Positions 6,335-12,374 of a stretch of 64,000 bases of DNA are shown here, piece after piece. The DNA lies in contig NZ_WQCF01000008.1 of the NCBI RefSeq assembly GCF_013032455.1, positions 124,001 to 188,000 of the forward strand, written 5' to 3'. The first letter of the stretch is position 1; the number at the start of each line of letters is the position of its first letter. This DNA comes from Ruegeria atlantica. GTDB lineage: Bacteria > Pseudomonadota > Alphaproteobacteria > Rhodobacterales > Rhodobacteraceae. A model generated the notes under the pieces. That model saw nothing but the letters and a program-made list of their open reading frames with translations. It had not been told where the DNA came from and searched no databases. The translations under genes and the position numbers were made by a program.

Positions 6335-6365
6335 TGTGATCACAGCTTTCTGGGGTGTGATCACA
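6335..6365. promoter_or_regulatory. Paired operator TGTGATCACA x2 upstream of sucC
   Basis: Two perfect copies of the 10-base palindrome TGTGATCACA lie at 6335-6344 and 6356-6365, with centres 21 bp apart (two helical turns). They are about 110-140 bases upstream of the sucC start. The same pair at the same spacing occurs upstream of sdhC. Apart from this pair and the mdh terminator, I see nothing definite in the 322-base gap 6227-6548; promoter elements for sucC are not clear. The identity of the binding protein is unknown. Confidence 0.75.
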
Positions 6366-6493
6366 TTTTCGGGTCTTGGTGATTTTTGATTCGATTGACT
6401 GGGCGAAACGCTCAAAAACACATTCAATAAAGGGATTTGGGCCGTTTGCGCCAACATCTACGGTCGTGTAAATCAGATCGACCTTGGGTGTAT

Positions 6494-6528
6494 AAAAGAA
6501 AAACCGGCCCGATATTGGGGCCGGTTTT
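6494..6528 (-). terminator. Rho-independent terminator of mdh
   Basis: Read on the minus strand this is an 11-base perfect stem (6518-6528 with 6500-6510) around a 7-base loop. It is followed by a T-rich run complementary to 6494-6503. It lies about 20 bases after the mdh stop and separates mdh from sucC. Confidence 0.85.
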
Positions 6529-6548
6529 CCGAAGATTTTCTAGAAGGC

Positions 6549-7511
6549 TCAGGCGAGCGAGCTATCGATACCTTTGCAAGCGTCGATCAGACCCTTAACG
6601 GCGTTGACCGAGTTGTCGAAACCTGCCTGTTCGTCTTCGTTCAGCTTGATGTCGACGATGCGTTCAATGCCGCCGGCGCCAATCACTGTGGGGACGCCGA
6701 CATACAGGCCATCCACACCCAGTTCACCGTTGCAATAGGCGGCGCAAGGCAGAACGCGTTTTTGGTCCTTCAGGTAGGCTTCGGCCATTTCGATTGCCGA
6801 AGTTGCCGGAGCGTAGAACGCAGAGCCGGTTTTCAGCAGGCCAACGATCTCGGCACCGCCGTCACGGGTGCGCTGCACAATGGCGTCCAGTTTCTCTTGC
6901 GAGGTCCAGCCCATCTCAACCAGGTCGGGCAGCGGGATGCCGGCGACGGTCGAATAACGGACCGACGGGACCATGGTATCGCCGTGGCCGCCCAGAACGA
7001 AGGCGGTGACATCGCGCATCGAAACGTTGAACTCTTCCGACAGGAAGTGTGCAAAACGGGCCGAGTCCAGAACGCCTGCCATGCCGCAGACCTTGTGATG
7101 CGGCAGGCCCGAGAATTCGCGCAGAGCCCAGACCATCGCGTCCAGCGGGTTGGTGATGCAGATCACGAATGCGTCGGGCGCGTGGGCGGCAATGCCTTCG
7201 CCAACCGATTTCATGACTTTCAGGTTGATGCCCAGCAGGTCATCACGGCTCATGCCCGGTTTGCGTGCAACCCCGGCGGTGACGATGCAGACGTCTGCGC
7301 CAGCGATATCAGCATAGTCGCTGGTGCCCGACATGGCTGCGTCGAAACCTTCGGATGGTCCGGATTCAGCGATGTCTAGCGCCTTGCCTTGCGGCAGGCC
7401 GTCGGCGATGTCGAACATGACAACGTCGCCCAGTTCCTTAACAGCTGCGAGATGGGCAAGTGTGCCGCCGATGTTCCCCGCGCCGATAAGCGCGATCTTG
7501 GGTCTGGCCAT
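6549..7511 (-). CDS. mdh: Malate dehydrogenase (NAD, LDH-like type)
   Basis: Oxidises malate to oxaloacetate in the TCA cycle. It has 320 residues from ATG 7511, preceded by GGAGAT. A longer in-frame reading upstream to 7604 lacks a good start context. The NAD fold [10 protein letters not shown] is at the N-terminus. [13 protein letters not shown] carries the substrate-binding arginines of the mobile loop, CITNPLDAM follows, and the catalytic His is in [13 protein letters not shown]. The length and these motifs fit the LDH-like MDH of alphaproteobacteria. It has its own terminator, so it is probably transcribed separately from sucC. Confidence 0.97.
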
Positions 7512-7672
7512 TTGGATGATCTCCGGTCGGTTTTGAAATTGCGGCTGTGCTAGTCGTTTATATTTGTTCTTGCAAGTATCATGGGGCGCGGCATGCAACC
7601 GCATACAGTTTGCACTGTGGTCTGTGATTGCGCTAAACGGCCTTTAAGACAAGCCTATAACCGGGATGCCGC

Positions 7673-8428
7673 ATGTTCGAATTGAACCTGATGTTTTTTG
7701 CTGTGGCGATCCCTGCGGTGATCTTTGCGGGAATCTCGAAGGGTGGGTTCGGATCGGGCGTGGCCTTTGCATCTTCGTCGATTCTGGCCTTGATACTTGA
7801 ACCCGGTCAGGCGCTGGCACTGATGTTGCCGATCCTTATGGTTATAGATGTGGCCACTCTTGGACCCTATTGGAAACGTTGGAATTGGCCGGATGCTCGA
7901 CTGCTGATTTTGGGCGCTGTGCCGGGTGTAGCGCTGGGTGCATTCCTGTATCGCGCCACGGATGACGACCTGCTGCGCCTTCTCATCGGGGGGATCTCGG
8001 TTGGCTTCGTGATCTGGCATATTGGCCAAAGCAAAGGCCTGATCCGTGGCTTTGCCAACCGCCTGCCGCCAATTGCGGGGCTGTTTGCCGGGTTGGTCGC
8101 GGGTTTCACCAGCTTTGTCAGCCACGCCGGTGGGCCGCCTGCCGCCGTCTATCTGCTGTCACAGCGCCTGACAAAGACCGAGTTTCAGGCTTCGACCGTG
8201 TTGGTTTTCTGGGTTATCAATATCGCGAAATTTGTGCCTTATGCCTATTTGGGCCTGTTCACCTGGCACACCGCTTGGGCCGATCTGCTGCTGACACCCT
8301 TTGCAATTCTCGGGGCCTGGCTGGGCGTCCGGGCACATTTCTTGCTGTCCGAGCGCATGTTTTTTTCCATCGCCTATGTGTTGTTGACGCTGACGGGTAG
8401 CAAACTGATCTGGGACGCTCTGACTTAG
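7673..8428 (+). CDS. TauE/SafE-family membrane permease
   Basis: A 251-residue polytopic protein of the TauE/SafE (sulfite/anion exporter) family. It has about eight hydrophobic segments. The N-terminal repeat carries AGISKGGFGSGVAF and the second repeat GFTSFVSHAGGPPAAVYL, both typical of the family. The real substrate is unknown; sulfite, sulfoacetate or other organic anions are known for relatives. It is divergent from mdh, and its stop codon overlaps that of the convergent gene at 8425-8724. Confidence 0.88.
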   Translation: MFELNLMFFAVAIPAVIFAGISKGGFGSGVAFASSSILALILEPGQALALMLPILMVIDVATLGPYWKRWNWPDARLLILGAVPGVALGAFLYRATDDDLLRLLIGGISVGFVIWHIGQSKGLIRGFANRLPPIAGLFAGLVAGFTSFVSHAGGPPAAVYLLSQRLTKTEFQASTVLVFWVINIAKFVPYAYLGLFTWHTAWADLLLTPFAILGAWLGVRAHFLLSERMFFSIAYVLLTLTGSKLIWDALT

Positions 8429-11559: not shown

Positions 11560-11573
11560 TAGAAGCACATTCA

Positions 11574-11583
11574 TGTGATCGCA
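11574..11583. promoter_or_regulatory. Single near-match to the TGTGATCACA dyad
   Basis: TGTGATCGCA differs at one base from the paired operator upstream of sucC and sdhC. It lies 30 bases ahead of the DUF1194 gene and has no partner at 21 bp. It may be chance. Confidence 0.25.
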
Positions 11584-11612
11584 GTCTGCGCTGTTCATGC
11601 TAGGCTGCGGTC

Positions 11613-12275
11613 ATGATCCTTCTTCGCTCACTCGCTGCTTGCTTGTTTCTGACGCCGCCTGCGTTGGCGTGTGATCTGGCGCTGGCTTTGGCAGTGGATG
11701 TATCCGGGTCGGTCGATTCATCGGAATATCGGATCCAGATGGATGGTCTGGCTACCGGCCTGCGGGATCCCCTTGTGTCTGAGGCGCTGGTGCGCGGGCA
11801 GGCGCAGGTGATGCTTGTGCAGTGGACCGGATCCTCGCGGCAGAAGACCACCATCCCCTGGACCAAGATCGACAGTTTTGAAACGCTTGAACAGTTTGCG
11901 GATAAGGTCGCCAACGATCCAAGGGTCTGGCGTAATTTTTCCACTGCGATCGGCGAGGCGCTTGAGATGACCATGTCCAGCTTTGAGCCGGTTTCCGAAT
12001 GTAAACGCCACCTTATCGATATCTCGGGCGATGGTGTTTCGAACGAAGGGATCGAACCGTCGGAACTGCACGAAGCATTGCGCAGTCGAGGTGTGACCGT
12101 GAATGCCATAGCGATCGAAGAAAGTGAGCCGGACCTGACGGCCTATTTCTTTGAAAACGTCATTGTCGGGGAGGGGGCGTTTGTGGTGTCTGCATCCGGG
12201 TTTGCCGACTATCCCGAACGGATCCGAAAAAAGCTGTTGCGCGAAGTTGTGAAACAATCGGCTGCTCTTGAGTGA
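11613..12275 (+). CDS. DUF1194 protein with von Willebrand factor A fold, secreted
   Basis: A 220-residue protein with a signal peptide (cleavage near PALAC, about residue 20) followed by a VWA domain. The metal-ion-dependent adhesion site DVSGSVDSSEY is intact at about residues 29-39, and a second acidic motif DISGDGVSNEG follows near residue 135. These match the DUF1194 family of secreted VWA proteins common in Rhodobacterales, of unknown function. It lies alone between mch and the sdh promoter region. Confidence 0.85.
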   Translation: MILLRSLAACLFLTPPALACDLALALAVDVSGSVDSSEYRIQMDGLATGLRDPLVSEALVRGQAQVMLVQWTGSSRQKTTIPWTKIDSFETLEQFADKVANDPRVWRNFSTAIGEALEMTMSSFEPVSECKRHLIDISGDGVSNEGIEPSELHEALRSRGVTVNAIAIEESEPDLTAYFFENVIVGEGAFVVSASGFADYPERIRKKLLREVVKQSAALE

Positions 12276-12286
12276 TGGCGAAGATT

Positions 12287-12374
12287 CGTGATCACAATAA
12301 GCGACACCCGTAAACGCTAACATTGAGATAATTGAATTAATTTTGTGATCACAGGTCTATTTGGTGTGATCACG
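12287..12374. promoter_or_regulatory. Operator cluster upstream of sdhC (paired TGTGATCAC dyads plus one outlier)
   Basis: TGTGATCACA at 12344-12353 and TGTGATCACG at 12365-12374 have centres 21 bp apart, the same arrangement as upstream of sucC. A third copy, CGTGATCACA, is at 12287-12296. The surrounding 212-base gap is AT-rich. The pair ends two bases before a possible -35 box, a position that would suit an activator. Confidence 0.75.

Follow-up and report, generated by a model that had tools for sequence, protein, structure and literature searches.

Do the suc and sdh genes of Ruegeria atlantica answer to one regulator and, if so, to which? The question is raised by a stretch of 64,000 nucleotides (the window; contig C39, 124001-188000, of a genome of 4,243,278 bases in 40 contigs), in which the arrangement TGTGATCACA-N11-TGTGATCACA was found upstream of both sucC (exact) and sdhC (1 mismatch). 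The original prediction had proposed one regulator for both promoters. This was supported, as the pair is conserved at both genes and is not scattered in the genome. The pairs most likely belong to the AkgR regulon, because their core, GTGATCAC, is published among the binding sites of the activator AkgR of Rhodobacter sphaeroides (accessible part of PMC6365646) and because a 2015 network study predicts that the GntR protein RSP_0981 regulates sucCD, sdh and alpha-ketoglutarate dehydrogenase (AKGDH) (accessible part of PMC4344238). Both the core and the targets were found here: GTGATCAC lies within the operators before sucC and sdhC, and sucA follows sucD. The regulator, its motif and its targets are already known, and what is added is the paired geometry, the operator at the regulator's own gene and the family-wide co-occurrence of gene and pair. 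No description of the paired geometry was found in the accessible parts of the literature searched, a search for TGTGATCACA gave nothing on this subject as judged by title, and RSP_0981 was not found in the literature searched beyond PMC4344238.

Probable paired operators upstream of sucC and sdhC

As originally described, the sucC pair is perfect in both copies (6335-6344 proximal and 6356-6365 distal relative to sucC), and the sdhC pair has one mismatch, with an exact distal and a one-mismatch proximal site. The common 21-bp centre spacing was also borne out, as were the similar spacers, GCTTTCTGGGG and GGTCTATTTGG, which have 6 of 11 bases in common. Two palindromes about two helical turns apart would fit the "dimer of dimers" that was proposed. 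Of the extra sites reported near sdh, the one at 11574 (TGTGATCGCA) has one mismatch as stated, but the supposed third copy at 12287 turned out to be a one-mismatch site, CGTGATCACA. The 12287 site was rejected as a core part of the arrangement because it is kept at the same position in only one of the 21 named sdhC loci, that of Ruegeria denitrificans (L003).

The window contains nine sites with at most one mismatch compared to 1.67 expected, and none of 100 shuffles reached nine. When the whole genome was searched with up to three mismatches, the pair was found in exactly two places, before sucC and before sdhC, and the reversed control pattern was not found at all. A base-composition model using the G+C content of the window predicts 1e-4 pairs at up to one mismatch and 0.06 at up to three. 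A check set beforehand, that the pair should not be scattered across the genome, was thereby passed. The genome holds five exact copies of TGTGATCACA: three in the pairs, one before an FCD-type GntR gene and one within the coding sequence of an autotransporter. Single sites with one mismatch show no enrichment across the genome (109 observed against about 111 from the window shuffle rate scaled up). A wider regulon of single sites was therefore rejected, and we propose no additional targets. The reversed-pattern control for single sites (20 against 109) was left unused; it contains CTAG, which was taken as rare. Apart from the paired form and the site at the gene of the regulator itself, nothing stands above background.

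Conservation at the orthologues of both genes had also been set beforehand as a check, and it was found at both. Among 80 named sucC loci, with a pair counted at 20 or 21 bp spacing and up to three mismatches, the pair was present in 30 of the 31 closest (L003-L033, SucC identity at least 82%). Their titles are nearly all Rhodobacterales, the exceptions being Maritalea (L026) and Proteobacteria (L029). None of the 49 more distant loci (L034-L082) had the pair, and the nearest match there had seven mismatches. These are mostly from other alphaproteobacterial orders and include, by title, "Jannaschia" (L070) and "Rhodobacteraceae bin131" (L075). The sole miss among the closest loci was L010 (Roseovarius sp. 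217). No match to mdh, sdhC, sdhA or the operator was found at its sucC locus, and this sucC seems to be a second copy. At sdhC, the pair (up to four mismatches) was found in 20 of the 21 named loci with sdhC in range, L031 being the miss. A set of 148 relatives gave a match in 85 genomes, 84 of the 91 in the family and 1 of the 57 outside it (with three mismatches).

Distances between neighboring sites (up to one mismatch, in the 300 bp before sucC or sdhC) were 20 bp in 15 cases, 21 bp in 48 and some other value in six, the last partly from an extra site of the 12287 type. Across 43 sucC and 21 sdhC pairs, the core GTGATCAC is nearly constant, with positions 2-9 invariant or nearly so. The sucC pairs have T-rich and A-rich outer flanks (TT before, AA after), looser inner edges and a spacer that is A/T-rich in its middle, and the pair itself is therefore roughly two-fold symmetric.

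A GntR gene with a probable operator of its own

The exact TGTGATCACA at the FCD-type GntR gene lies at 3352-3361 of locus L158, 7 bp before the ATG. This gene, here called akgR, is preceded by a YgjP-like gene in this genome. Its product has an N-terminal winged helix-turn-helix and an FCD domain (Pfam PF00392, GntR, 2.8e-14; PF07729, FCD, 2.6e-16), and AkgR is presumably FCD-type as well. The metal-binding triad of FCD domains consists of D/N-x3-H plus two further His; in a 23-row alignment N136-x3-H140 and H183 are invariant, and the middle His is seemingly absent. The named proteins nearest to this regulator, among 120 listed relatives, are mostly from Ruegeria, and one of the 120, 93% identical, carries the NCBI name "GntR family transcriptional regulator AgkR". 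In 11 of the 31 closest named loci, an orthologue is found on the far side of lpd, oriented towards the suc genes, with 71-80% identity over the aligned parts; some of these orthologues are cut by the locus end. Some of the other 20 loci end before the akgR position.

The upstream regions of 38 akgR genes, own genome included, were compared. The site is exact in 32, has one mismatch in two and has two mismatches in another two; since 30 of the regions were chosen as best protein matches, this sample leans to close relatives. Upstream of the best site is a TTGAC whose end is 12 bp away in 31 regions and 13 bp away in three. This would place the operator on the -10 region, in the interval from the -35 to the -10 position, which fits self-repression. 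AkgR had been named in the original prediction as a TCA (tricarboxylic acid) regulator, and the sites are linked to it by the site at its own gene, the co-occurrence described below, the relative named AgkR and the published core.

Co-occurrence was scored in 394 family genomes, with the GntR gene counted at E <= 1e-40. The gene was found in 362 genomes and the pair with an 11-bp spacer in 348; 339 had both, 23 the gene only, nine the pair only and 23 neither. The sucC gene was inspected in 24 chosen discordant or negative genomes. Each of the 11 strong GntR carriers whose sucC upstream region could be read has a pair with a 10-bp spacer, and no site was found at sucC in five genomes without GntR or in three with weak hits alone; G170, G299 and G310 had no readable sucC upstream region. 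The 10-bp form was then searched for in the 46 pair-negative genomes, and all 13 that have it carry GntR. With either spacer allowed, 352 genomes have both, 10 the gene only, nine the pair only and 23 neither (Fisher p=2e-22, a value that is too small because relatedness is ignored). Restriction to genomes at least 95% complete gave 305, 4, 2 and 16, respectively. The four GntR-only genomes in this subset are three with weak hits (G163, G390, G447) and G310. As for the nine pair-only genomes, five are less than 90% complete and two more are 91-93% complete. A sample of 240 genomes from the class contained two from outside the family that reach E <= 1e-40; their identity of 39-42% resembles that of the paralogue discussed below.

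The arrangement can be compared to several known systems. AkgR of Rhodobacter sphaeroides shares the core GTGATCAC (accessible part of PMC6365646), and suc, sdh and AKGDH are the targets predicted for RSP_0981 (accessible part of PMC4344238). In contrast, akgR is here on a different contig than the suc locus, and neither paired operators nor a single self-operator are described in the accessible parts of those two papers. The GntR-like PS417_07240 of Pseudomonas simiae is 32% identical to AkgR and has a conserved GTGATCAC palindrome upstream of its cluster, but this is a catabolic cluster for a sugar acid (deoxyribonate), with one site at -47 to -40 (accessible part of PMC6365646). CceR of Rhodobacterales likewise regulates central carbon genes (accessible part of PMC5507952), but it belongs to another protein family, LacI, and the motif predicted for RSP_1663 differs (accessible part of PMC4344238). 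Escherichia coli McbR (4p9f), only a distant relative, is the best-scoring solved structure by sequence (E 5.7e-19, residues 19-213). The targets of McbR differ from those here.

Promoter geometry and the probable action of the regulator

At sdhC, 17 of 21 sequences have the TGAC of a -35-like box at one offset, the box starting 56-59 bp past the proximal operator, and the TGAC is extended to GTGAC in all but L028. Three outliers, L030 (46 bp), L013 (69 bp) and L014 (79 bp), are displaced by about -1, +1 and +2 helical turns, and L033 has no TGAC box. The distance from the pair to the ATG ranges from 144 to 267 bp despite the fixed -35 offset. The sdhC promoter scores above shuffles (mean 8.99 against a shuffle maximum of 8.81). 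At sucC, a TTT is conserved 46-48 bp after the operator (T at +46 in 37 of 43), one turn nearer than at sdhC. A strict sigma-70 consensus scan found nothing at either promoter. Upstream, phase-locked sites at a fixed distance from the -35 box are what contact between an activator and RNA polymerase needs, and the sdhC geometry fits activation.

Judged from the DNA, the pairs are very probably AkgR operators, which would activate suc and sdh together, and the single operator at akgR would serve self-repression. One AkgR dimer would sit on each palindrome, and two dimers on the same DNA face would touch RNA polymerase from upstream. Bound AkgR would then activate the suc operon, including the 2-oxoglutarate dehydrogenase genes, jointly with the sdh operon, and would repress its own gene from the single operator. 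The name AkgR suggests 2-oxoglutarate as the effector. In most of one large bacterial family, AkgR probably switches on two TCA-cycle steps jointly. A more specific form of this model, to which we give slightly less than an even chance, is that AkgR is a phase-locked upstream activator, with paired dimers (20 or 21 bp apart) on the polymerase face, a whole number of turns away from the -35 box, that becomes a repressor at a single operator, and that this two-architecture switch has held suc and sdh together family-wide. The distances to -35 in this reading are about 46 bp at sucC and about 57 bp at sdhC, with outliers at 46, 69 and 79 bp, and the two-architecture arrangement was not found outside the family in the genomes searched. 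In marine roseobacters and related bacteria, a conserved DNA signature is here assigned to a named regulator, and genome sequences of the family can thus show how two central TCA steps are controlled. The system also offers a way to ask how one GntR-FCD protein might be an activator at one type of site and a repressor at another.

Several observations weigh against the AkgR model. The helical-turn outliers number only three, one of which (L014) has several TGAC matches, and the sucC promoter does not score above shuffles (8.05 against a shuffle mean of 8.29). Two akgR genes, in L026 and L031, have no good operator, and some named loci, such as L005 and L015, continue for 1.9-2.5 kb beyond lpd with no akgR. 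G310 is 97% complete and has a strong GntR hit but no pair anywhere; its sucC is truncated. The nine pair-only genomes have a pair match and no GntR hit, and two of these, G223 and G318, were inspected. G223 genuinely departs from the rule, since its sucC pair is conserved and it yields no AkgR hit, although its assembly, in 320 contigs, is fragmented and may perhaps be missing akgR. G318 has no pair at sucC, and its match therefore sits elsewhere. The E <= 1e-40 cut-off admits the paralogue (2.3e-45 in our own genome), and the best E value is weaker than 1e-70 in six of the 362 carriers (G086, G163, G231, G382, G390, G447). G382, with two pairs and a good paralogue hit, may be a further case of a pair without AkgR. 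Relatives of akgR are spread across the family, Rhodobacter species included, and the gene described here is a presumed orthologue of Rhodobacter sphaeroides akgR, with AkgR taken to be RSP_0981. Imam and colleagues reportedly showed in 2015 that AkgR activates TCA genes.

FCD GntR proteins are mostly repressors, and the operator of akgR itself overlaps a core promoter. AkgR or another protein could repress from the pairs, for example through a DNA loop that joins the sucC sites to the sdhC sites across 6 kb. We consider this unlikely, since the sdhC sites lie far upstream of the -35 box at a fixed, apparently phase-locked distance, since in some genomes (G202, G361) the two pair matches fall on different contigs or 89-190 kb from each other and since AkgR is termed an activator in the accessible part of PMC6365646. 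It is very unlikely that the pairs are bound by a 38%-identical GntR paralogue (L139, contig C36) in place of, or in competition with, AkgR. The paralogue is also a GntR-FCD protein and probably recognizes a related palindrome, with TTTGATCA-type sites before its gene, but no TGTGATCACA was found in the 501 bases read there. It was found (E <= 1e-60, at which diverged copies may be missed) in 176 of the 394 family genomes, and 181 of the 218 genomes without it keep the pair. On the same 11-bp-spacer counts, its odds ratio with the pair is 3.8 compared to 37.7 for AkgR; another conserved GntR of the family therefore gives a much weaker link.

Two explanations leave GntR proteins aside. We take CceR, a LacI-family regulator of central carbon metabolism, to be RSP_1663. 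Binding of CceR to these sites is most improbable: RSP_1663 is predicted for sdh and mdh in Rhodobacter sphaeroides, but its predicted motif, [A/G/T]GTT-N6-8-AAC[A/C/T] (both from the accessible part of PMC4344238), is not contained in TGTGATCACA, and neither is its GTT-N6-8-AAC core. CceR may act elsewhere in these promoters. We give almost no weight to the idea that the pair acts as RNA, with the two palindromes forming a stem-loop (terminator or attenuator) in an mdh-sucC transcript. The palindromes can pair with each other, and mdh and sucC are co-directional in the window. However, a distinct hairpin resembling a terminator is located between mdh and the pair (one found against 0.6 expected in shuffles), the pairs are upstream of the putative promoters, akgR has one site only, and the inner bases show no clear covariation (sucC: A-T 32, A-C 4, G-T 4, G-C 2, A-A 1).

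Features of the window

Table 1. Coordinates of the genes, predicted operators and putative promoters; positions refer to the window unless a locus is given.
Feature	Position	Strand	Basis or detail
sucA, 2-oxoglutarate dehydrogenase E1	3..2162	-	tblastn match 2162-3, running to window edge
sucD	3512..4399	-	Pfam, tblastn
sucC, succinyl-CoA synthetase beta	5033..6226	-	translation; 98% identical to Ruegeria denitrificans
sucC promoter (putative, weak)	6258..6288	-	conserved TTT 6288-6286, -10 TATAAC 6263-6258
sucC paired operator (predicted)	6335..6365	-	both copies of TGTGATCACA exact, centre spacing 21 bp
hairpin resembling a terminator, between mdh and the sucC operators	6498..6530	-	13 pairs, T-rich tail
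auxiliary site CGTGATCACA	12287..12296	+	one mismatch; -201 to sdhC ATG; 57 bp upstream of sdhC pair
sdhC paired operator (predicted)	12344..12374	+	distal 12344-12353 exact, proximal 12365-12374 one mismatch
sdhC promoter (putative)	12431..12458	+	-35 GTGACA 12431-12436, 16-bp spacer, -10 TAAAAC 12453-12458
sdhC	12488..12871	+	sequence, translation, tblastn
sdhA (13280-15088) and sdhB (15101-15880)	13280..15880	+	open reading frames; sdhB by Pfam
akgR, FCD-type GntR gene	G000:C4:3369-4016 (locus L158)		contig C4, outside window; 215 residues

Two open reading frames without a Pfam match lie on the minus strand among the suc genes, one of 239 amino acids between sucD and sucA (2793-3512) and one of 180 amino acids between sucC and sucD (4486-5028). 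A DUF1194 (von Willebrand A-like) protein is encoded at 11613-12275, between a mesaconyl-CoA hydratase-like gene and sdhC. Outside the window, the paralogue gene (L139:1060-1743, minus strand, G000 contig C36) adjoins a gene for an extracellular solute-binding protein (Pfam SBP_bac_8; polyamine-type by eye), and the TTTGATCA palindromes before it may represent a sister motif that shares the GATC core.

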